A stretch of 25,911 nt of DNA. Origin: a virus. Both the position numbers and the translations under genes were made by a program. How positions within the stretch are numbered: position 1 is the stretch's first letter; every line of letters starts with the position of its first letter. The stretch spans positions 1-25,911 of IMG/VR virus record IMGVR_UViG_3300012096_000017; one strand, written 5' to 3'. The notes under the pieces were generated by a model, which was not told the origin of the DNA, searched no databases, and saw nothing but the letters and a program-made list of their open reading frames with translations. Shown one piece after another: positions 689-25,911 of the stretch.

Positions 689-1440
689 CAGCTGCCACCG
701 CCCCCTGGCCGATCTTGGAAAATGTTGTAAGTCGCGTACGATCGGCTCACGATGGCCGGGTCCACATCCGAGATGTTCTCCTTGATGTTGCGCCGCTTGG
801 CGTTCGCAAGCGCCTCCTTCGCGATCTCAGCGATGTTCTTCTGTCCCGGAGCCATCGGCGGGATCGGAATGCCGAACATGCTGGAGATTTCCACCGCCAG
901 ATTGAACACGAACGCTCGTTCGTATCCCGGCGGCATTGAGAGATTGGTCGCGAGACCCGCAAAGATCACCTGCTGCAGCTGACTATCGAAATAGCACTTA
1001 TAGGCTACGAGCGGGGTGGGAAAGAAGTTCATCACCCCCAGCGGGTACTGGGGATCGTAGAACAGATCGGTGGGGATCTGTGATGTGACCGTCGGGCCGC
1101 GATTGCCGATAATGTTCCAGCGATCGCGAGTGCGGATGTTCAGCAGGAAATTGTTCGCCCCACCGTCCTGGATGTAGGCTTCGATGATGTCGTTGGGACG
1201 CGCGACATTGACCTGCCCGCCAACCCCCACCGTATAGGATTGCTGCCCGGGGACGAGCGTGAAATTCTGCTCCAGAACTTCATAGGCCACCAGGCCCTCG
1301 CCCGCTGTCCAGGAGTCCAGCAGCGAGTTGAGCGCTTCAAGAGCATCGTTCGCCTCGGAGGCTGACGGTACTTCAGTGCCCCCGAGGGCCTGGAGCGAGC
1401 GCATGGCTCGCCGAATCAGATCGTTCGCGCTGTTCGCCAT
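688..1440 (-). CDS. P22 gp4-like tail accessory factor (head completion)
   Basis: About 250 residues starting MANSANDLIRRAMRSLQALG, a helical N-terminus typical of the P22 gp4 family that assembles below the portal ring. The middle has a PGQQSYTVG segment followed by RPNDIIEAYI, common in this family. The ATG at 1440 is preferred. A GTG at 1449 in the same frame would add three residues, and neither has a strong Shine-Dalgarno. The 5' end overlaps the 3' end of the upstream glycosyltransferase gene by about 68 bases, which is longer than the other overlaps here. The glycosyltransferase tail there may be non-functional extension. P22 gp4 itself is shorter; related podoviruses have longer versions. 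Confidence 0.82.
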   Translation of the reverse strand: MANSANDLIRRAMRSLQALGGTEVPSASEANDALEALNSLLDSWTAGEGLVAYEVLEQNFTLVPGQQSYTVGVGGQVNVARPNDIIEAYIQDGGANNFLLNIRTRDRWNIIGNRGPTVTSQIPTDLFYDPQYPLGVMNFFPTPLVAYKCYFDSQLQQVIFAGLATNLSMPPGYERAFVFNLAVEISSMFGIPIPPMAPGQKNIAEIAKEALANAKRRNIKENISDVDPAIVSRSYATYNIFQDRPGGGGS

Positions 1441-3595
1441 GGTCGGCACTCAGTGATCGTAAGTAGGTATCAAAGTTCCCGCTCCAGCCCTTCACCCCGA
1501 AGTGACTCACATCCACATTGGGATAGATCCAGGGCTCGATGCCCAGTTCCTGCATGCGCTTGCCAAATACCCGATCCTCGCCCCAGCGAAGATGGTCTTG
1601 CGTCTGACAGGCAAAGAATTCGGTGTACAGACGATCCGGCGCTGAAGGATCCGCCGCCGGGTCCTTGTAACTGTGCTCCGGATACTTCGTCCTGAAACTC
1701 TCCAGCGCTGTGCGCTTGATGCGCATGAACCCACCGGCGAGGTACTGGCTCTTGATGATGGAGGTTCCATCCGGAAGCGGCTTGTAGATCGTGTACAGAT
1801 TGCCGTTGTCCTCTTCACCGGGCTTTTTCACCCACTGAGGAATGCTCGTCCAGGCATCCCACTTATTTTTCTGTGGGTAACTCGCCACCACGATTTCCTC
1901 GGGGATGTAGAGCATCTTCAAAAAACTCTCCGGATTCCACTGCATGTCGGAATCGATCATGAAGAGATCGGTGGCCATGGAATCCTCGAGGAACCGAGCG
2001 CACAGCGTGTTCTTCGCCCGCTCGACGTAGCTATCCCCGGAGAGCTCGTAATACTCCCACTCGATCCCCATGATGGTGAGCATGCGTGTGGTCGCCACCA
2101 GCGACATGATGTAAGGGCTCCAGCCCTTCATCTCGTAGTAGGCGGTCGCAATGATCACCCGCATCTTGCGGTTGTAGTAGCGTTTTTTGATCTCCGAATA
2201 GGTCATCAACAGGCGGTGCCCATCGATGTTGGTCGAATAGTTGCCCTTGTGGATGCGTGTGTGGGTGAGCGGTTCTTCGACAATGACGATGTTCTCGCGA
2301 TGTAAAAGACGCAGGTACAGATCGTAATCGCACAGCACCCAATCGTCTTTGTTCCATCCACCCACATCTCGAACGGCCGAGGTGCGGTACATCCCAGCAC
2401 CGAAGTACACGTTTCCATAGTACAGGCGCTCCAGCCACTTCTGCCGCGTCTTGTTGACCGCCGGCTCGATCTTCTGCAGGTGATGCGTACCCTTGGGCAC
2501 CGGCACGCCCTGCTCGTCGATGAAGTCGGTCTGTGAGGCCACCATCTCGGTGAAAAGATTGAGCTTGTATTGCTCCAGGCAGCGCGCGACGAAGGTGGGT
2601 TCGAGCAAATCGTCCGCGGCGAGCGTCACATAGAATTCGGTGTCACAGCGGGCCAGCATCTGGTTGTGCGCTTCCTGCACGCCGCGGTTCTCATCGAACT
2701 GCAGCCACTGCACCTGCGGGTACTTGGCGACCACCTCGGCGGTATCATCGGTGGATCCGTCATCCAGCACCATGATCTTGCAGGGCACGGTTTGCTTCAT
2801 CGCCGACTGAATCGCTTCTTCCACGCACCAGGCCATGTTGTAGACCGGGATGCCGATCGTTACTTCCCCCATCGGCGGAAACACCACCTTGTGCTTGGCG
2901 GACAACCGCTTCACGTCGTCCTGAAATTTCACTGCGTTCTCTGCCGAGGGTGCGGTGAGCCGCGTCTCGGGATGGTCAGCATCGGCCCAGCGGAAAGGCA
3001 GCACCGCGCCTTGAAACTTCTTGAAGAACCGCACGAACCATTCGAGGTCCGAACAGTGAAAGAACTCCGGATCAAAGCCCCCGATCTGGTGGTAGCAGTC
3101 CCAGCGCATCAGCATCGAGGCCCCGCCGATGGGAATGTTGTCCATGGTGAGCAAGGTCTTCACCCACGACTCGCGCGAGCGGTTGGCCGCATGCATCAGG
3201 TACTGTTCACTGGAGGGCCGCTCACCCATCGGTCCTTTGCCCGGCATGCCCCACACGCAGCCGATCTCCGGCGCGTTATCCAGGTACGCCACCTGCTGAC
3301 CCAGCTTGTGCTCATCGATGAATTCATCGGCCGACAGCGGCTGCAGAAATTCTCCGGTGGCATGCTCGAAGGCCCAGTTGAATCCATACGGGATGCCGCG
3401 GTTCTCCTCGAACCGATGCAACTGGATCCGCGCATCGTTAAAGCCATCCACCACCTTCTGAATGTCCTCGGTCGATCCATCATCGACAATGATCAGTTCC
3501 CAGTCGGTGAAGCTCTGCGCCACGACACTGGCAATCATCTTCTCCAGATGATCGGACATGTTCAGCACTTGCGTGCAGATGCTAACGCGAGCCAT
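1373..3595 (-). CDS. Three-domain glycosyltransferase (two GT2-like domains plus a C-terminal GT-A-like domain)
   Basis: 740 residues. Domain 1 (about 1-238) starts ARVSICTQVLNM and has DDGST at 38-42, but its expected DxD position reads SADE (88-91). Domain 2 (about 243-475) starts VTIGIPVYNM and has DDGST at 278-282 and AADD at 326-329. Domain 3 (about 478-715) starts MRVIIATAYY and has a DSDM metal-binding-like motif at 548-551, followed by SYPQKNKW and YLAGGFMRIKR. No signal peptide or membrane segment is evident, so it should act in the cytoplasm. It lies between the co-chaperonin gene (14-base overlap) and gp4. The last 25 or so residues are read from DNA that also encodes gp4 and look unstructured. 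Donor, acceptor and product are unknown; virion or host-surface glycosylation is inference. Confidence 0.88.
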   Translation of the reverse strand: MARVSICTQVLNMSDHLEKMIASVVAQSFTDWELIIVDDGSTEDIQKVVDGFNDARIQLHRFEENRGIPYGFNWAFEHATGEFLQPLSADEFIDEHKLGQQVAYLDNAPEIGCVWGMPGKGPMGERPSSEQYLMHAANRSRESWVKTLLTMDNIPIGGASMLMRWDCYHQIGGFDPEFFHCSDLEWFVRFFKKFQGAVLPFRWADADHPETRLTAPSAENAVKFQDDVKRLSAKHKVVFPPMGEVTIGIPVYNMAWCVEEAIQSAMKQTVPCKIMVLDDGSTDDTAEVVAKYPQVQWLQFDENRGVQEAHNQMLARCDTEFYVTLAADDLLEPTFVARCLEQYKLNLFTEMVASQTDFIDEQGVPVPKGTHHLQKIEPAVNKTRQKWLERLYYGNVYFGAGMYRTSAVRDVGGWNKDDWVLCDYDLYLRLLHRENIVIVEEPLTHTRIHKGNYSTNIDGHRLLMTYSEIKKRYYNRKMRVIIATAYYEMKGWSPYIMSLVATTRMLTIMGIEWEYYELSGDSYVERAKNTLCARFLEDSMATDLFMIDSDMQWNPESFLKMLYIPEEIVVASYPQKNKWDAWTSIPQWVKKPGEEDNGNLYTIYKPLPDGTSIIKSQYLAGGFMRIKRTALESFRTKYPEHSYKDPAADPSAPDRLYTEFFACQTQDHLRWGEDRVFGKRMQELGIEPWIYPNVDVSHFGVKGWSGNFDTYLRSLSADHGEQRERSDSASHALAPGPRGH

Positions 3596-3845
3596 TGATG
3601 CGTCCTATGATGGAGTTGTGACGGGTGACGATGATCTCCTCGCCATCCACCGTGGTGATCTGGTGCCCGTGCGTGCTGAAGAGCACCAGATCGCCGGATT
3701 TCAGCGATGAATCCGGGCCGGCGGCGTACACCGTCCCGATATCCTCCTGAAAATCAGGCGAGCTGATCGGGATGTGAATCATCCCTTTCTTGTCCAGCAC
3801 CTGCCGGCGAATCAGCACCACATCGGAAAGCGGATCGATATGCAT
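3582..3845 (-). CDS. GroES-like co-chaperonin (Cpn10 family)
   Basis: 87 residues starting MHIDPLSDVVLIRR, which matches the GroES opening pattern (IRPLHDRVIVKR). It then has DKKGMIHIPISS, where the mobile loop with its hydrophobic tripeptide should lie, GTVYAAGPDSSLKSGDLVLF (the G.V.AVG...VGD.V.F signature), and ends EEIIVTRHNSIIGRI, like the GroES C-terminal strand. Length fits the family (90-100 aa). An in-frame TTG two codons upstream is less likely than this ATG, which has AAAGGG upstream. Phage co-chaperonins such as T4 gp31 and RB49 CocO replace GroES to fold the major head protein. This one sits within the head operon, overlapping the glycosyltransferase by 14 bases. Partnership with host GroEL is inferred. 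Confidence 0.82.
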   Translation of the reverse strand: MHIDPLSDVVLIRRQVLDKKGMIHIPISSPDFQEDIGTVYAAGPDSSLKSGDLVLFSTHGHQITTVDGEEIIVTRHNSIIGRINGSR

Positions 3846-3966
3846 GGTCAATGAGACCCTTTAGTCTAACCAGTTCAACATCGCTACCGGCTTGCGCCAG
3901 ATACCCGCCCAAGACCTTCAGTTGCGAGCGAGCATCCAGCGCCGGCCAGTTGATCGGGAATATCAC
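3754..3966 (-). CDS. Possible small hypothetical protein, GTGA-coupled
   Basis: A 70-residue frame from GTG 3966, whose GTGA overlaps the TGA stop of the preceding small head protein, the same arrangement used by many real genes here. The first 45 residues (starting VIFPINWPALDARSQLKVLG) look like ordinary protein, with an amphipathic stretch. The last 23 overlap the co-chaperonin gene in another frame and look like shadow sequence (CGADSPAGAGQER). No family is recognised. It fills an otherwise empty stretch of about 120 bases between two genes, which supports it. The long overlap with the co-chaperonin counts against it. Confidence 0.35.
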   Translation of the reverse strand: MIFPINWPALDARSQLKVLGGYLAQAGSDVELVRLKGLIDHAYRSAFRCGADSPAGAGQERDDSHPDQLA

Positions 3967-14390: not shown

Positions 14391-15164
14391 TCAGAAAGTC
14401 GGCTCGGCGCGGTCCAAAACCCCGGATTTCTGATGGTTCAGCGGGAATGGCGGCCCGCGGCGTGAAATAAACACGCTGCCCTCTTGGTGCCGGATCGGCA
14501 TGTGCTCGAGTTTCGTCGCCGGCTGCCAGTCGTTCTTCTGGGTATACACCAGCGCCCCCAGGCGCTCAAAGTGATCCAGCACGCTCACCGCGGTGGTCAT
14601 CCCCCGCAGCTCGCACAGCAGATCCAGGTGCTCCAGGTGCTCCGCGGTAACGCAACGCAACAGCACGTCTTCGTGGCCCTCGACATCAAGCTTGGCGAAG
14701 TCGGCCCAGTGAAACAGCGGCCGGCAGTCCACACAGGGTACCGTGAGGTTCATCAGCGGCCCATAGCCGGTCTTGGAACCCTCCAGGTACGATCCGGTCA
14801 TGTTGTCGACCACCCGCACGAAAGGAGCCATGCCCTCGCGATCGCTCACCGCCGCCCGGTAACGCTCGATGTGAGTGGCGCCATTCTTCTTCAGATCACA
14901 GTCCATGATCGAGAAAATCGACGGATCGGGCTCGAAGGCCTTCACCTGCCAGCCGAGTTTGGCCATCAGCATGCTGTGCAGACCGAGGTTCGCACCGATA
15001 TCGAGCACCCGCTTGTAGCGATGCCGGTTGTGCTGGTACAGCGCGAAGATGATCAATTCGTTCGGGCCGAAAAGATCGAGACTGTCGACCTTGCCCATGC
15101 TGGTGTAGGGAAAACGAATGCCGATCTGCTCGCACAGCCAGGCCTGAGCGCGCTCCCTAGACAC
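14391..15164 (-). CDS. FkbM-type SAM-dependent methyltransferase
   Basis: 257 residues. SAM-binding motif I is VLDIGANLG at 53-61, with the acidic FEPDP at 77-81. The AKLDVEGHE at 157-165 is the hallmark IKxDVEGxE of the FkbM family, O-methyltransferases that often act on sugars or polyketides. The GTG start at 15164 overlaps the end of the ThDP-enzyme gene by 8 bases. It follows the SDR and ThDP enzyme in one coupled string, so it probably modifies the same product. Substrate is unknown. No transmembrane segment is seen. The C-terminal 30 residues (GPPFPLNHQKSGVLDRAEPT) look like a loose tail. Confidence 0.85.
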   Translation of the reverse strand: MSRERAQAWLCEQIGIRFPYTSMGKVDSLDLFGPNELIIFALYQHNRHRYKRVLDIGANLGLHSMLMAKLGWQVKAFEPDPSIFSIMDCDLKKNGATHIERYRAAVSDREGMAPFVRVVDNMTGSYLEGSKTGYGPLMNLTVPCVDCRPLFHWADFAKLDVEGHEDVLLRCVTAEHLEHLDLLCELRGMTTAVSVLDHFERLGALVYTQKNDWQPATKLEHMPIRHQEGSVFISRRGPPFPLNHQKSGVLDRAEPTF

Positions 15165-16197
15165 TCAGCGCCGCCTTTAACTCTTCTGGATCCAGCCGCG
15201 GGTCGCCATCCTCCAGCCCCGCCCCGAAGCGCACCTGGGGCTCGATGCCCTCATCCGGATCGATGTGAAGCTCGAGCAGCGCTTCGTAAGCGTAGCTGCG
15301 CGCCACCCGGCTGAAATCAGCCATCGACAAGAAATCCTCATCAGTGGCCACATAACGGCCATCGAGCCACTGACGCTGCGTCTGACGACACATGGCATGG
15401 CCCTTGTTGTTGAATAGCACCACCGTGATCGGCCATTGGTGCTTCACAATCGTGGCCAACTCCGGGGTGTGCACCGACAAGCCGCCATCCCCGGTGATGC
15501 ACCAGACCTTCTTGCCGGTCGCCAGATGAGCCCCGATCGCCGCCGGCAAGCCATAGCCCATCGGGGTGTTGTTCCAGGCGTGGATGAAACGTTGCCCGCG
15601 GAACTTGAACGCCTGCATCATCCAGCCCAGCACACACCCGGTATCGCTCACGATCACGTCATCGGGTTTGACCATGTTGCTCAACTGCGCACAGATTTTG
15701 TAGGGTTTTGCGCTCGAACACGGGAACTGTGCCCTCCACATCGCGATCCTCAACTGCCACATCTGGGTGTCTGAGCGCGGCTGCTCGATCTGCAGAAAAT
15801 CCCGCGCATCAGCGCAGATGCCCTCTACGGCTCTTCCCAATTTGCCGAACTTGTCGATCTCTTCGGGGTCGATGTCCACCATGGTGATGCGCGCTCGCGG
15901 AGCGAAGGAAGATACCGGCGAGCCCGTAGCCTTCGTATCCAGGCGTGTGCCCACCGTGACGATACGATCGGCCGTCTGTACCGCAAAGTTTGCATGGCGT
16001 AGCCCATGAGTTCCAAAGCGTCCCACATTCAGGCGGTGATCATCGTGCATCAGATCAGCCGCCCCCCAAGTGAGCACCACAGGCACGTTCGCCCGCTCCG
16101 CCCATTTCACAGCGAGCTCGCGAGCGCACTGCACGCCGCCGCCGAAGACGATCAGCGGGCGCTGTGCGCCGTTAAACAGATGCGCGCTGGAGGTCAT
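15157..16197 (-). CDS. Acetolactate-synthase-like ThDP enzyme, central and ThDP-binding (PP) domains
   Basis: 346 residues if started at ATG 16197 (MTSSAHLFNGAQRPLIVFGG); the open frame extends to 16242. The central domain covers roughly the first 140 residues (RPLIVFGGGVQCARELAV, RIVTVGTRLDTKATG). The PP domain has WNNTPMGYGLPAAIGAH, then the ThDP motif GDG, 24 residues, then NN (CITGDGGLS to LFNNKG). It is in a +1 frame relative to the 177-aa upstream ORF that supplies the PYR domain; together they give the usual length of about 520-560 residues. A GAG 7 bases before the ATG could support re-initiation, so a genuine two-subunit enzyme is possible. The alternative is a frameshifted gene. Confidence 0.8.
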   Translation of the reverse strand: MTSSAHLFNGAQRPLIVFGGGVQCARELAVKWAERANVPVVLTWGAADLMHDDHRLNVGRFGTHGLRHANFAVQTADRIVTVGTRLDTKATGSPVSSFAPRARITMVDIDPEEIDKFGKLGRAVEGICADARDFLQIEQPRSDTQMWQLRIAMWRAQFPCSSAKPYKICAQLSNMVKPDDVIVSDTGCVLGWMMQAFKFRGQRFIHAWNNTPMGYGLPAAIGAHLATGKKVWCITGDGGLSVHTPELATIVKHQWPITVVLFNNKGHAMCRQTQRQWLDGRYVATDEDFLSMADFSRVARSYAYEALLELHIDPDEGIEPQVRFGAGLEDGDPRLDPEELKAALSV

Positions 16198-16705
16198 CGG
16201 GTATCTCGAGCAGCACCGGGCCGGGACGCTGCTGCTGGGCAATACCCAGTGCCGTTATCAGCGTGCTCGATCCAAAGTCAGGATCAAAATCTGCAGCCCG
16301 ATCGCACTGGTGTGCCCACTTGGTGATCGGCCGCGCAATCTGCGTCATCGGACACTCCTGGAACCCATACTGGCGCAGTTTCGGGTTGATGTTCTCTTTG
16401 AGCCGTACCCTCGTCTGCTGGCCCACGATGTACAGCACCGGCACGCTGTCATAGAACGAAGTTGCAATCGCGGTCACCAGGTTCGTTGCGCCAGGCCCCG
16501 AAGTAGCCAGAGCAACGCCCAGGCCGTGCAACCGAGCATAAGCATCAGCGGCAAAACCGCAAGCGGCCTCCGACTGCGGGCATATGATCGCCACTCCAGC
16601 ACGATCCAGGCTATCAAGCAGATGCAGATTGGCCCCCCCTGATACAGCAAAGACATGGCGCACCTGTTCCTTGATGAATTGCGCGATGAGATCAGAAATC
16701 TTCAT
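16172..16705 (-). CDS. Acetolactate-synthase-like ThDP enzyme, N-terminal PYR domain
   Basis: 177 residues starting MKISDLIAQFIKEQVRHVFA. It matches the PYR domain of acetolactate-synthase-like enzymes: FAVSGGANLHLLDSL, the cofactor-activating glutamate E46 in CPQSEAACGFAADAYAR, and ATSGPGATNLVTAIA. It ends GPVLLEIPDDLQRASV, exactly where the PYR domain normally joins the central domain. Its stop overlaps the downstream ORF by 26 bases (to ATG 16197). Its start overlaps the SDR gene by 14 bases. Relatives in sugar clusters, such as YerE of yersiniose biosynthesis, add a two-carbon branch from pyruvate to a nucleotide keto-sugar. That role here is inference. Confidence 0.8.
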   Translation of the reverse strand: MKISDLIAQFIKEQVRHVFAVSGGANLHLLDSLDRAGVAIICPQSEAACGFAADAYARLHGLGVALATSGPGATNLVTAIATSFYDSVPVLYIVGQQTRVRLKENINPKLRQYGFQECPMTQIARPITKWAHQCDRAADFDPDFGSSTLITALGIAQQQRPGPVLLEIPDDLQRASV

Positions 16706-17354
16706 GCCGTCTCAGCTTCCAGGTGTCAGCACTGAACCGCTGTGATCGATAATCGTCCGACACGCAGATGTTGCGGCCCCCGATGGTTGCTTTCTGAGCC
16801 TCCATACACCAGCGCAGACACTCGTAGATTTTCGCCATTGGCGTGCCGCCCACATTCATCGCCTCGCTCAACCTCTCGTTGATCCAGCGCGTATCGATCG
16901 TCGGCTTGTGAATCTTAGTGAGCACAATTCCGGGGGCCAATGCATACCACTTCACATCGGTCTCCACATTCAGATGCTCGACGGCCTTCAATAGCGCCAT
17001 CTTGGCCACGTTGTAGGCGCTGTACCCGAGCTCGATCGTGTTCGGATTGGAGCCGGCCAGCATGCACACCTGCGCGTTCGCATTCCTGTGCTTCCACAAC
17101 TGCCGGATGAGCCGCAGTGGCAGCAGCAGATTGCTCTCCATGGCATCGCACCACTGCACATCATCGGCATCCTCCCACTTGCCGATCGATCCCAGCGCCC
17201 CGATCGCGCAAATGATCAGATCCCAGGCCGGTTCCATCGGTATCAACAGCTCTTCGCCCCGGTGCCAGCCATACACACGATGCCCGTCTTCTTGCAGGAA
17301 CTTGATCAGCGCTCGCCCAATATCACTGAAGCTTCCCAGGATAATGACCTTCAT
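16692..17354 (-). CDS. Short-chain dehydrogenase/reductase (SDR)
   Basis: 220 residues. The N-terminal nucleotide-binding loop is GSFSDIG (7-13), a variant of TGxxxGIG. N74, S101, and the YxxxK pair Y113/K117 (YSAYNVAK) form a complete SDR catalytic set. CAIGALG (49-55) fits the NNAG position loosely. Length is slightly short for a classical SDR. ATGA coupling to the preceding HTH gene and overlap with the ThDP enzyme place it in one pathway. A keto-sugar or acetyl-branch reductase would fit, by analogy with reductases that partner YerE-like enzymes. Substrate cannot be read from sequence. Confidence 0.83.
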   Translation of the reverse strand: MKVIILGSFSDIGRALIKFLQEDGHRVYGWHRGEELLIPMEPAWDLIICAIGALGSIGKWEDADDVQWCDAMESNLLLPLRLIRQLWKHRNANAQVCMLAGSNPNTIELGYSAYNVAKMALLKAVEHLNVETDVKWYALAPGIVLTKIHKPTIDTRWINERLSEAMNVGGTPMAKIYECLRWCMEAQKATIGGRNICVSDDYRSQRFSADTWKLRRHEDF

Positions 17355-21869: not shown

Positions 21870-22013
21870 TCATTGTTGTTCGATCAGCAGCGCGCTCACG
21901 CCATCCTCGAGCAAGATGTGCCCACCATCCTCCTGCAAGAGGAACGACTCGAGGATCGTAACGAGGAATGGCGCGATGCCGCCGAAGCGAAATTGCAGGA
22001 AGCTCAAGCGCAT
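21870..22013 (-). CDS. Small hypothetical phage protein
   Basis: 47 residues from ATG 22013, MRLSFLQFRFGGIAPFLVTI, then SFLLQEDGGHILLEDG and ending ALLIEQQ. The repeated LLxEDG pattern (LLQEDGG, LLEDGVS) is familiar from short proteins next to phage tail genes, but no family name can be assigned. The frame is open upstream to TTG 22097; no Shine-Dalgarno is clear at either start. It would be the first gene after the repeat-rich control region and so the first gene of the tail transcript. Confidence 0.5.
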   Translation of the reverse strand: MRLSFLQFRFGGIAPFLVTILESFLLQEDGGHILLEDGVSALLIEQQ

Positions 22014-22123
22014 GGTGCGGGGCAGCAAACCTGCTGGCAGCGAAGATAGGGGCTTGTACGCTGAAACCGACGACTTGGCAACGGGTGGTTTTTGCAAGCC
22101 CGATGTCAGTAAATACCGCTTGT

Positions 22124-22152
22124 AACCGCTGTAACTCAGTTACAACGCGGTT
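22124..22152. repeat. Imperfect inverted repeat (TGTAACT dyad)
   Basis: TGTAACT and AGTTACA are separated by one base, flanked by AACCGC on the left and, after a two-base bulge, GCGGTT on the right. On the plus strand it is followed by TT, resembling a terminator, but no plus-strand gene leads into it. It shares the GTAAC core with the nearby 9-bp repeats, so an operator is the better guess. Confidence 0.55.
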
Positions 22153-22183
22153 TTGAAACCTCTAAGTTATAGCAATATACTCT

Positions 22184-22219
22184 CAGTTATTAGAGTTACT
22201 AGAGTTACAAGAGTTACAA
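22184..22219. repeat. Four tandem 9-bp repeats (GAGTTACAA type)
   Basis: Consecutive 9-mers read CAGTTATTA, GAGTTACTA, GAGTTACAA, GAGTTACAA with no spacer. The next 12 bases (TAGTAATTACTA, 22220-22231) form a perfect palindrome. The array lies just after the VapE-like gene and upstream of tail genes. A -10-like TATAAC on the minus strand (22171-22166) lies just downstream and lacks a good -35, suggesting activator sites; replication iterons are the alternative. Confidence 0.8.
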
Positions 22220-22241
22220 TAGTAATTACTAGAGGGAGAAA

Positions 22242-23447
22242 TCAGTTACCTATGTCCGTAACCCTGATACCCTTCCTCCATTTACGGGTTATTTTGTCTC
22301 CATCACGGATGAGCGTTCTATTCCATCCCAGGTCCCGGAGTGTCGATGCGGCTCTGAGCTGATCAGTGCGACTTTGACGCCCCAGTTCGATCTGCAGACA
22401 TTGCTCGAGCAGATCCGACATGGTGATCAGCTCGCGGCTCTCGAGCCAGCGCGAGATGGGATGTTCCCAGGCATCGCGATCTCGCCGTTGTTCCTGTTCT
22501 TCGGTGGCTCGAGTAATTGGAACATCCCACCAGATGGCCCCGTTGTGAAACTGGGTATGAGCCTCGGCAAACAACTGCTCTCGGGTATTGCGGATCCAAT
22601 CCAAGTCAATATGAGTACAACGGACGGGCCAGAACCGGCGGGCTCCTGTCTCGTCACGGTTCCAGTCCTCGCGGTTGGTGGTGCCGGCAAGCACGCACTG
22701 CCGCGGGAAATCACCAGCATGCCGACCATAGGGAGGTCGGTAGCGGTCGATTTGACACGAAATGACGCCTTTGATGCGCTCCACTTCGGCCCGTGAAAAA
22801 GCGTTCAGTTCACTGATCTCGACCATCATCTTGCCCTGCAGGTGCTGACAGAAGTCCTTGGTGAGGATGGACTCATGGCACTCAGAAAACCATGGGTCAC
22901 TGGCCAGAAGCCGCAGGGCGCTCGATTTGAGGCCACCCTGAGGCCCTTCGAGCACGGGCATGGTGTCTACTTTGCAGCCTGGGCGGCAGATCCGGGCGAC
23001 CATGGACACCATCCAGCAACGGCCCACGGATTGTGCGTAGTCGTCTTGGGGAACGCCGAATCCCTCATGCATCAAGTAGTTCAGTCGATCGGTGCCATCC
23101 CATTTGAGTGCGCTGAGCCATGCTTTAGGAGCATTCAGGCGTGTTTTCTTGGCCATGCTTTGCGCTGCAGCGGCAACGGTTTGAAGCGGCATGCGATAGA
23201 TGCCGATCTTGCGCTGGATGTAAACCGTCAAATCTGTATCATCGGTGTCAGACCATTCGCGATACTCTGCAGAATCAATGCGCCCGAGCATGCGATTGGC
23301 GAACTCGTCATAAGCGAGCTTGCCTTTGAGGCTGGGATCGTTCTCGAGGATGGCTAGAGCGTTGGATAGATTGCCCAGCGGTCCATTGTCCGTGCACTTA
23401 AGCCCTAGCGCACCCCACAGAGCAATTTCGACAACCGTGGCGGGCAC
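22242..23447 (-). CDS. VapE-like (virulence-associated E) helicase
   Basis: 401 residues. LAYDEFANRML near 44-54 is typical of the region preceding the VapE ATPase. The P-loop is GPQGGLKS at 168-175. An acidic Walker B-like stretch (MMVEISELNAF, 207-217), a sensor-like AGTTN (253-257) and RRFWPV (269-274) follow, all in family order. VapE proteins are SF3/AAA-like ATPases used in replication of phages and pathogenicity islands. There is no primase domain in front, so a primase must be supplied elsewhere. The GTG start at 23447 lies two bases after the previous stop. The last 80 residues (WLESRELITMSDLLEQCLQI onward) look like a winged-helix. Confidence 0.85.
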   Translation of the reverse strand: MPATVVEIALWGALGLKCTDNGPLGNLSNALAILENDPSLKGKLAYDEFANRMLGRIDSAEYREWSDTDDTDLTVYIQRKIGIYRMPLQTVAAAAQSMAKKTRLNAPKAWLSALKWDGTDRLNYLMHEGFGVPQDDYAQSVGRCWMVSMVARICRPGCKVDTMPVLEGPQGGLKSSALRLLASDPWFSECHESILTKDFCQHLQGKMMVEISELNAFSRAEVERIKGVISCQIDRYRPPYGRHAGDFPRQCVLAGTTNREDWNRDETGARRFWPVRCTHIDLDWIRNTREQLFAEAHTQFHNGAIWWDVPITRATEEQEQRRDRDAWEHPISRWLESRELITMSDLLEQCLQIELGRQSRTDQLRAASTLRDLGWNRTLIRDGDKITRKWRKGIRVTDIGN

Positions 23448-23449
23448 AG

Positions 23450-23791
23450 CTAAGACCCCAGCATTCTGCGCAGGAGCGCCTCTTGCAAATACTGCCGGGT
23501 CAGGTATTGCTGATGTTCGGCCAGTATCTCATCAGCCATCTCAAGGGTGATGCGCAAGTTTTCATGCATGTTCCACAGAACCCGCTCGCATCGACTAAGC
23601 CCATCGGACAGAGGTTCTAAGAGGAATGCCGGTATTTTTCTTTCACGCAAGCGAAGCAATTTAGCGGCATCGGCCACGGCCATCTCATAGGCCGCATGCA
23701 ACTGTCCCGGATCGATCGGCTTGAATGCCACAGACACGATAGGATCATCAATCCACGGTAGGTCCGTTGGGTTGTAGGGCAAATCCGGCAT
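23450..23791 (-). CDS. Hypothetical helical protein upstream of VapE-like helicase
   Basis: 113 residues, MPDLPYNPTDLPWIDDPIVS then a largely alpha-helical body (LHAAYEMAVADAAKLLRLRE and ITLEMADEILAEHQQYLTRQ). A strong GGAGG lies 5 bases before the ATG. It ends two bases before the helicase start, so co-translation is likely. No family is recognised. It could be a small partner of the helicase; this rests only on coupling. Confidence 0.7.
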   Translation of the reverse strand: MPDLPYNPTDLPWIDDPIVSVAFKPIDPGQLHAAYEMAVADAAKLLRLRERKIPAFLLEPLSDGLSRCERVLWNMHENLRITLEMADEILAEHQQYLTRQYLQEALLRRMLGS

Positions 23792-23885
23792 GGGTGCCTC
23801 CGCTTAGGTGACAAAGAAGGGTGCTGGTAGATCCTGAAAGCGGCAGGAACAGGGGCGGCCGGCCCTTTTCCCAGCGAAGGCGATG

Positions 23886-24074
23886 CTACACTTTTTTTGC
23901 CTTCAATTCTGCGGCAATTCGGTGGCTGTCGTAAGCCGAGGGGCGCTGCTGGATCAGTTTGCGCAGGTGCTCGAAGACTTTGTGGCTACCCTTGAGGCCG
24001 TCTTTATCGACGCTCTTCCAGTAGGCTTTCCAGGCGATGTCGATGCGGTGCTCGAGGTCATCGGGCTGGCTCAT
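23886..24074 (-). CDS. Small hypothetical helical protein
   Basis: 62 residues, MSQPDDLEHRIDIAWKAYWK onward, ending AAELKAKKV. It is charged and helical. The ATG overlaps the nuclease stop (ATGA), with GGAGGG 6 bases upstream inside the nuclease gene. It is followed by about 94 noncoding bases before the next gene. No family is recognised. Confidence 0.65.
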   Translation of the reverse strand: MSQPDDLEHRIDIAWKAYWKSVDKDGLKGSHKVFEHLRKLIQQRPSAYDSHRIAAELKAKKV

Positions 24075-24565
24075 GGCTTGCCCTCCAGGTAAGTTGTGAC
24101 GACTTCGATCGCCTTGTCCAGCGAATCGCAGATGTGGGTAGCGTAGCCGACCGACTCGAGATAATTGAGCACCTCGAGCTGGGCATCGGATGCGGCGCCA
24201 CCGGGCCGTTTCATCTCGATCGCCATGCCGTGCAGCGAGCCACGAGGCACCGCCAGGAACAGATCGGGGATGCCCGGCCTCACACCCTCAGCCTTCAGCA
24301 TGGCGCCCGTCACGGGGCTCCTGTGGCCCCCTGAGGGCACCGCATAGAGCGCGAACTCCGGCAACCGATACTTCGCGTGGTTGTAGTGCCACCACAGGAT
24401 CACCTCGCACTGGATAGTGTGCTCCGACTTGCCGGCCGATGGCTTCCTCTTCCGCACCGGCGCAATCTGCTCGAACACCGCCGCCGGCGTGGGCCGGCCC
24501 GACAGTGAGGCGTAGTGGGCGAGACCCTTCTGAGCCTCGCGCCGGGACTGCTTCACGCCGGTCAT
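24071..24565 (-). CDS. VRR-NUC domain nuclease
   Basis: 164 residues. The VRR-NUC (virus-type replication-repair nuclease) pattern is clear. SEHTIQCEVILWWHY (E48 and E54 region) is followed by YAVPSGGHRSPVTGAMLKAE and then GVRPGIPDLFL with D101. The GMAIEMKRP segment gives the ExK (E117, K119), and Q129 (SDAQLEVL) completes the PD-(D/E)xK core. These stand-alone domains occur in phage replication or resolution modules, cutting branched DNA. The N-terminal 45 residues are basic and probably DNA-binding. ATGA-coupled both upstream and downstream, within the early operon. Confidence 0.88.
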   Translation of the reverse strand: MTGVKQSRREAQKGLAHYASLSGRPTPAAVFEQIAPVRKRKPSAGKSEHTIQCEVILWWHYNHAKYRLPEFALYAVPSGGHRSPVTGAMLKAEGVRPGIPDLFLAVPRGSLHGMAIEMKRPGGAASDAQLEVLNYLESVGYATHICDSLDKAIEVVTTYLEGKP

Positions 24566-24708
24566 ATCACACCTCGGATCACGGCTTCGATATGCGCAGC
24601 CGTAACATCGTACTGCACCGCCAGTTCGTAGACTGACGCTCCGCAGAGGAACGCATACAGGATCTGCCAGCGATCAAGGAAAGCCGTGACACGGGTGGGT
24701 AGGCTCAT
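24562..24708 (-). CDS. Small HTH-like protein
   Basis: 48 residues from ATG 24708 (MSLPTRVTAFLDRWQILYAF), chosen because its ATGA overlaps the stop of the 68-aa HTH gene. ASVYELAVQYDVTAAHIEAV has the shape of a helix-turn-helix (xxxELAxxYxVTxxxIxxVIRG). The longer frame to 24954 reads through the other HTH gene and is rejected. Its stop overlaps the nuclease ATG. Probable small regulator or replication accessory. Confidence 0.6.
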   Translation of the reverse strand: MSLPTRVTAFLDRWQILYAFLCGASVYELAVQYDVTAAHIEAVIRGVI

Positions 24709-24911
24709 CCCTTCGCCCTGCCGTTGAGCTTCTTCAGCCCCGTCAGTGCCGCCTCCAGCGCCTGCCAACTGTGCAGCCGCGGGGCTTGGATATCCCGGTA
24801 AGCAAACTTGTCTAGCGACGACTTGCTGATGCCGACCAGTTTGGCCAGAGAGATCCGCTGGACGATCGTCATCTCCCTGACCATGGTCCGCGCCTCTTCG
24901 AGTGTCATCAT
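24705..24911 (-). CDS. Small HTH regulator (candidate repressor of the divergent region)
   Basis: 68 residues, MMTLEEARTMVREMTIVQRI then SLAKLVGISKSSLDKFAYRD, a clear helix-turn-helix with LVGISKSSLDKF as turn and recognition helix. It is the first gene leftward of a divergent promoter with a palindromic operator, so autoregulation is likely. The predicted transcription start would lie only a few bases before the ATG, giving a leaderless or near-leaderless message, as for the lambda cI gene from its maintenance promoter. The two ATGs in a row make the exact start ambiguous by one codon. Confidence 0.75.
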   Translation of the reverse strand: MMTLEEARTMVREMTIVQRISLAKLVGISKSSLDKFAYRDIQAPRLHSWQALEAALTGLKKLNGRAKG

Positions 24912-24922
24912 TTCTGTCTTTT

Positions 24923-24951
24923 ATAACAAACTGCGAAATAGTTCTTGACAA
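24923..24951 (-). promoter_or_regulatory. Leftward promoter of the HTH/replication operon
   Basis: On the minus strand TTGTCA (24951-24946) is followed after 17 bases by TGTTAT (24928-24923). A better-matching TATAAA lies 20 bases away. The -35 lies in the centre of the palindrome at 24938-24958. Confidence 0.55.
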
Positions 24952-24958
24952 CAACTAT
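24938..24958. promoter_or_regulatory. 21-bp near-perfect palindromic operator
   Basis: Arms ATAGTT (24938-24943) and AACTAT (24953-24958) surround a core with TTG and CAA also symmetric. Only the pair at positions 7/15 and the centre base break symmetry. The centre coincides with the -35 boxes of both divergent promoters. Confidence 0.75.
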
Positions 24959-24975
24959 CCGAATCATGTTAGTAT
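24945..24975 (+). promoter_or_regulatory. Rightward promoter of the small early genes
   Basis: Perfect TTGACA (24945-24950), then TAGTAT (24970-24975) after 19 bases, with TG before it (extended -10 style). TATAAA 22 bases away is an alternative. A GGAGA Shine-Dalgarno and ATG 25006 follow. Confidence 0.55.
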
Positions 24976-25005
24976 AAATCCGTCGAAAGTCAAGCGGAGA
25001 TTGAA

Positions 25006-25206
25006 ATGAGCGACGTTCAATGCAACCGATGCGATAAATCGGCCAAGTTTTTACTCGAATTCCCATGTACCACAGAACTTCAATATCAGTTTGAGGCGCA
25101 TCTCTTGGGAAAATCGACAAAACTCATTCCATTTTGTACGTCTCACACAAAGCGTGCAAGAGGATTCCTCCAAATTATCAAACTGACGAAAGAGGAAACG
25201 TTATGA
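25006..25206 (+). CDS. Small putative zinc-binding early protein
   Basis: 66 residues, MSDVQCNRCDKSAKFLLEFP onward. C6xxC9 and C44xxH47 could form one zinc site of treble-clef type. GGAGA lies 6 bases before the ATG. It is first in a rightward operon and overlaps the next gene by ATGA. No family is recognised. Early phage genes of this type often encode host-takeover proteins, but nothing specific is visible. Confidence 0.7.
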   Translation: MSDVQCNRCDKSAKFLLEFPCTTELQYQFEAHLLGKSTKLIPFCTSHTKRARGFLQIIKLTKEETL

Positions 25207-25430
25207 CCCCGATGGAAGAGATGGCCGCGCGAATTTTAAACCCACCACGGGCGCCGGTTCCGGACAACTCGGATCTGAGCGTGTGTCAGTATATTGCGAT
25301 GTGCACGTCGGCCGATGATCTGGGCGAATACTTGCACCAGTTGACCTTCGGCGATGGGCCGACGCAGGAAATGGCGCGGCTGAGCATCAAGCTCAAAGTA
25401 TCCGTGCTTCAAGTGGGCAACGGCAGATGA
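25203..25430 (+). CDS. Small hypothetical early protein
   Basis: 75 residues from ATG 25203 (MTPMEEMAARILNPPRAPVP), with GAGGAAA upstream and ATGA overlap with the previous stop. The frame is open 23 codons upstream, but that part overlaps the zinc-like gene and is not used. The C-terminal half (DLGEYLHQLTFGDGPTQEMA then RLSIKLKVSVLQV) looks like a small helical domain. ATGA overlap with the next gene also supports it. Confidence 0.68.
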   Translation: MTPMEEMAARILNPPRAPVPDNSDLSVCQYIAMCTSADDLGEYLHQLTFGDGPTQEMARLSIKLKVSVLQVGNGR

Positions 25431-25911
25431 AAGCCTGGCACTTCGTCGGCAAGACGTTGCGCGATGGCAATCCCATCCATGAAAATGGCTACACGCTACT
25501 GTTCGATGGCCCACTCAAGATGTGCGAGTACGGTCTGCACGCGAGCAAACTTCCCTTCGATGCATTGAACTATGCACCCGGGGCGACCTTGTGCTACGTC
25601 GAATGCGGCGGCAAGATCATCGAGGACACCGACAAGCTAGTGTGCTCTGAGCGCACCATCATCGCGCGCATGGATGCGACCGAACTCCTGTACTACTTTG
25701 CTCGCATGCAAGCGTTGTCGGTCATCCATCTGTGTGACACAGATCCTCCGGATGTGGTGCTGGATTATCTGATGACCGGAAACGATTCAATCAGGGCCGC
25801 AGCCTGGGCCGCAGCCTGGGACGCAGCCAGGGCCGCAGCCTGGGACGCAGCCTGGGCCGCAGCCTGGGACGCAGCCTGGGACGCAGCCAGGCACGCAGTC
25901 AGGGACGCAGC
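25427..25911 (+). CDS. Phage repeat protein (DUF7666-like N-terminus), partial at right edge
   Basis: Starts at ATG 25427 (MKAWHFVGKTLRDGNPIHEN), ATGA-coupled to the previous gene, and runs off the window after about 161 residues. The N-terminal domain (MCEYGLHASKLPFDALNYAP, CYVECGGKIIEDTDKLVCSE, and YYFARMQALSVIHL) resembles a common phage protein family that I recall as DUF7666; the name is uncertain. From about residue 125 the protein is a tetrapeptide array (AAWD, AARA, AAWA types) encoded by 12-bp repeats. Function unknown. Confidence 0.75.
   Translation, partial: MKAWHFVGKTLRDGNPIHENGYTLLFDGPLKMCEYGLHASKLPFDALNYAPGATLCYVECGGKIIEDTDKLVCSERTIIARMDATELLYYFARMQALSVIHLCDTDPPDVVLDYLMTGNDSIRAAAWAAAWDAARAAAWDAAWAAAWDAAWDAARHAVRDA
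25799..25911 (+). repeat. 12-bp tandem repeat array coding A-A-(W/R)-(D/A)
   Basis: At least nine in-frame copies of GCAGCC(T/A)GGG(A/C)C with few changes (the last copies vary to CAC and GTC), continuing to the window edge. The period is a multiple of three, so copy-number change would keep frame. Confidence 0.9.

Follow-up and report, generated by a model that had tools for sequence, protein, structure and literature searches.

Gene layout at the right end of the window

We analyzed a 25,911-bp fragment of a virus record, hereafter the window, whose portal, terminase and head genes are P22-like and whose source is an uncultured P22-like phage. Nearly all genes in the window are transcribed leftward, with a short rightward block beginning at 25006 at the right end. 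The leftward early block is headed by a gene for a 68-aa putative XRE/Cro-like HTH protein (24705–24911, minus strand), followed by genes for a 48-aa HTH-like protein (24562–24708, minus strand; weak HTH_23/Mor and late-activator profile matches), a VRR-NUC nuclease (24071–24565, minus strand; PF08774, 6e-8) and, further on, a VapE-like replication helicase (22242–23447, minus strand; PF05272, 1e-70). The rightward block encodes a 66-aa protein with CxxC and CxxH motifs (25006–25206, plus strand; Shine-Dalgarno −6.6 kcal/mol), for which no relatives were found in IMG/VR or the INPHARED phages, a 75-aa protein with no assigned function (25203–25430, plus strand), and a DUF7666 protein that contains AAWDAA repeats and whose gene is cut by the contig end (25429–25911, plus strand; PF24703, 2e-13). 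At the DNA level, the AAWDAA-repeat segment (25794–25911, 118 bp) is 91–94% identical to Pseudomonas phages AF and PPpW-3; no other DNA similarity to the phage collection was found for positions 22001–25911.

Several additional features were observed elsewhere in the window. A cluster of AGTTAC-like repeats (22114–22249) spans the end of the VapE helicase gene and the DNA immediately 3′ of it; the window has 14 exact AGTTAC copies, of which 6 lie in this cluster. It contains three or four 9-bp tandem units (22185–22220), an inverted pair that forms the second 21-bp dyad of the window (22127–22147; the other is described below), and TTGAAA-17-TATACT (22153–22181), which scores best of all sigma70-like sites in the window. 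The cluster may serve as an iteron-type origin or as a site for a regulator. Unusual metabolic genes occur amid the structural genes at 14391–17354, including those for an FkbM-like methyltransferase (a weak match), a short-chain dehydrogenase and an acetolactate-synthase-like TPP enzyme that is split over overlapping frames (N-terminal domain 16705–16172, middle and C-terminal domains 16242–15157). Two family 2 glycosyltransferase stretches occur in a 740-aa protein (1373–3595) encoded beside the head and tail genes. The phage also encodes a GroES-like co-chaperonin (3582–3851; Cpn10, 2e-7; phrog_3188).

A palindromic site between divergent genes

The start codons of the first leftward gene (ATG 24911) and the first rightward gene (ATG 25006) are separated by an AT-rich gap of 94 bp. 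Within this gap, between the HTH gene (24911–24705) and the gene for the 66-aa protein (25006–25206), lies a 21-bp dyad, ATAGTTCTTGACAACAACTAT (24938–24958), in which 9 of 10 pairs match around an odd centre at 24948. As had been originally predicted, the dyad is centred in TTGACA read rightward (24945–24950, plus strand) and TTGTCA read leftward (24951–24946, minus strand), and the two hexamers are offset by one base. The description of these hexamers as two −35 boxes holds in part: both are present on their respective strands, but they are not independent, since TTGACAA always yields TTGTCA on the opposite strand.

When the 94-bp gap was shuffled 20,000 times with dinucleotides preserved, a comparable 21-bp dyad arose in 94 of the shuffles (0.5%), a frequency that rose to 1.7% when gaps of 0–4 were allowed. 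Across the whole window there are two dyads of equal quality versus ~0.8 expected, and it is therefore the placement of the dyad, not its existence, that makes it notable. Three of its pairs come free with any −35 element, because TTGACAA is partly self-symmetric; the outer arms match at 6 of 7 pairs, and a match this good or better has P = 0.002 given the core. No second copy of the dyad was found in the window at up to 3 mismatches, and a search of IMG/VR for the operator pattern gave no further occurrence. The dyad most likely represents a docking site for a repressor.

Candidate promoters were sought with a sigma70 scan that employed a simple, approximate weight matrix. On the plus strand, TTGACA (24945–24950) is the candidate −35 of the best site in the gap, which scored above local shuffles (P = 0.013) and is the second best plus-strand site window-wide by this matrix. 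The candidate rightward −10 (24970–24978, plus strand) is either TAGTAT (24970–24975; TG-extended, spacer of 19) or TATAAA (24973–24978; spacer of 22), with a predicted start at ~24982–24985. On the minus strand, the highest-scoring site in the gap has TTGTCA (24946–24951) as its candidate −35, and the candidate leftward −10 (24920–24928, minus strand) is either TGTTAT (24928–24923), which is weak at its spacer of 17, or TATAAA (24925–24920; TG-extended, spacer of 20), with a predicted start at ~24913–24916. The leftward site was not significant against local shuffles (P = 0.085), and an alternative leftward candidate, TTGACT-16-TAACAT (start ~24959), had the same score as the site anchored by TTGTCA.

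About 70 bp separate the predicted divergent starts, and relative to each of them the dyad extends from about −25 to −47. The proposal of a single symmetric, operator-like site over the −35 of both candidate promoters is supported. Since the spacers are non-optimal, one promoter or the pair of them could be weak or positioned elsewhere. One shared −35 is plausible yet unproven, because the spacers are poor and the leftward site is not convincingly above shuffles, and strict mutual exclusion of polymerase would depend on these same predicted promoters.

The 68-aa HTH protein and its start

An AlphaFold single-sequence model of the 68-aa protein has four helices (pLDDT 82). Its structure matches, among them P22 c2, 434 repressor and Cro, YdaS, AcrIIA15 and Aca11, are largely small DNA-binding HTH proteins, with match scores that are middling (Z at most 7, Foldseek E above 0.5). 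No curated profile matched the protein above the cut-off, the best being HTH_26 (E 0.19, 12.4 bits versus a cut-off of 22), and no relatives were found in IMG/VR, GTDB contigs, INPHARED phages or 398 genomes of the order to which the host of the related prophage (see below) belongs.

The leftward ATG at 24911 lies 2–5 nt past the predicted starts and is without a Shine-Dalgarno (duplex −0.9 kcal/mol). Together with the XRE-like model, this agrees with the earlier description of the first leftward gene as encoding a small HTH protein with a near-leaderless start. An in-frame ATG at 24884 does have a Shine-Dalgarno (−5.8 kcal/mol), but starting there would remove helix 1 of the modelled domain. 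We favour the upstream start at 24911, because helix 1 spans residues 4–13 in the AlphaFold model and most of the PDB matches begin their alignment at residues 1–3. The possibility of a mis-annotated start, with 24884 as the true ATG, is weakened both by the need of helix 1 for the upstream residues and by the same arrangement in the related prophage. The comparison of this gene with lambda cI implies the position of cI, whereas the gene heads the replication operon, which is the position of Cro.

Comparison with a related prophage and known control regions

The closest prophage found was that of Rhodanobacteraceae bacterium ZG21-1 (L116/L121), whose portal is 51% identical to that of the window and which has a gene (L121:3762–4499) whose product is 42% identical to the DUF7666 protein. 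In the ZG21-1 prophage, the first gene of the early operon is YdaS/Cro-like and diverges from a gene for a CI-like repressor (phrog_12107, 9e-21). The intergenic DNA has two operators, ACCGTTACGGT and ACCGTTTCGGT, 25 bp apart, beside TTGACAA, and a TTGACA-17-TAATGT site toward YdaS has its predicted start at the YdaS ATG, which would make that start near-leaderless as well. The two regions are thus alike in that each has a first gene that encodes a small HTH protein from a near-leaderless start, contains TTGACAA, carries a DUF7666 gene on its rightward side and lies next to related phage genes. They differ in that two operators flank the −35 in the prophage, whereas the window has one operator that contains it, and in that the prophage has its own operator sequence, a CI-like gene and an HTH protein dissimilar in sequence. 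As the layout of the window matches that of ZG21-1, the region can be equated with a cI/cro region that lacks CI at the usual place.

Among 40 related virus records, only L012 has a related helicase (45%), and in that record TTGACAA anchors the best promoter-like site in each direction. The VRR-NUC relatives L003 and L004 were rejected as comparison loci, as their neighbourhoods differ. Pseudomonas phage Haddon has an annotated order of repressor, CII-like activator and helicase, and the HTH, HTH, VRR-NUC, helicase order of the window mirrors this cro-cII-replication order.

Both single-operator divergent regions (PMC4488713) and overlapping divergent promoters (PMC4207663) are already known, and the region in the window, though compact, is ordinary in kind. 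In the immB cI/cro region of phage PY54, a single 16-bp palindromic operator between divergent genes is bound by a Cro-type protein (PMC4488713). The window has a similarly lone palindromic operator between divergent genes; in PY54, however, the divergent partner is the prophage repressor gene, and the operator is upstream of cI, not over a shared −35. Bidirectional promoters of E. coli, like the site in the window, are pseudo-symmetric DNA on which polymerase could sit in either of two mutually exclusive orientations; they share a −10 (PMC12825309), whereas the promoters in the window would share a −35, back to back. At basal activity no marked competition was apparent at the E. coli promoters, and strengthening one direction was needed to bring it out (PMC12825309); for this reason, polymerase competition is not to be assumed in the window. 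In the Pc/Pr switch of pLS20, too, regulator sites lie on overlapping divergent promoters (PMC4207663), but its −10 and −35 boxes coincide crosswise, and it relies on many sites and on DNA looping.

A probable divergent early control region

We consider it probable that a P22-like phage controls its divergent early genes from this region, with back-to-back sigma70-type promoters and one operator over the −35 of both, and that the 68-aa protein is the likeliest repressor. The 68-aa protein would be produced early, together with the replication genes, and a dimer of it may then occupy the dyad. The bound repressor would block both promoters and so turn down the replication operon and the rightward operon, an outcome that would amount to Cro-like negative feedback on its own operon. 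Polymerase competition at the shared −35 could contribute additionally.

The dyad might instead be the operator of another regulator, either a CI-type protein whose gene lies beyond the fragment or a factor of the host, with the 68-aa protein acting elsewhere. The window is a fragment whose contig ends at 25911, and in the ZG21-1 prophage it is a CI-like repressor gene that adjoins the operators; nevertheless, we regard this as rather unlikely, given that the corresponding adjacent position in the window is without CI and that the first gene beside the dyad itself encodes an HTH protein. There is also a small chance that the dyad arises largely as a side effect of a −35 in an AT-rich gap, TTGACAA being self-symmetric, and that the rightward promoter alone is real. 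The automatic presence of TTGTCA, the number of such dyads in the window (two versus ~0.8 expected) and the P of 0.085 for the leftward promoter all fit this explanation, but the pairing of the outer arms given the core does not, and the leftward operon requires a promoter, for which none better was found nearby.

The original prediction of a minimal early or lysogeny-type switch stands as to an early divergent layout with an operator, but not as to lysogeny. This is because no CI or integrase was found among the proteins scanned, a subset of the ORFs in a fragment record with an incomplete contig; partition genes were likewise not found in that set. A lambdoid switch has a divergent prophage repressor gene and two or three related operators, whereas the rightward genes here encode the 66-aa CxxC/CxxH, 75-aa and DUF7666 proteins, and the operator occurs as one copy at up to 3 mismatches. 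A lysogeny switch is thus not supported by this fragment, which has no lysogeny repressor gene where such a switch needs one. That the region is a lambda-like lysogeny/lytic switch whose direction is set by polymerase competition at the shared −35 strikes us as very improbable, despite the overlapping −35 hexamers and a layout equivalent to the cI/cro region of the ZG21-1 prophage; the scanned proteins include neither CI nor integrase, the first rightward gene encodes a small CxxC/CxxH protein, the operator is single, and the leftward promoter is not above chance. We give equally little weight to a CI-less decision element, in which the one operator and shared −35 would force a choice on polymerase and the protein in the Cro position would shut off both operons.

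Overall, our analysis favours a divergent early control region, probably under negative feedback from the HTH protein in the Cro position. Should the −35 not be used from both sides, the region would be an ordinary operator between divergent early genes, valuable mainly for annotation and for its cI/cro-like layout without CI at the usual place. If the −35 is used from both sides, the window would contain compact, natural back-to-back promoters that are made mutually exclusive by one element and that could easily be rebuilt in a reporter.
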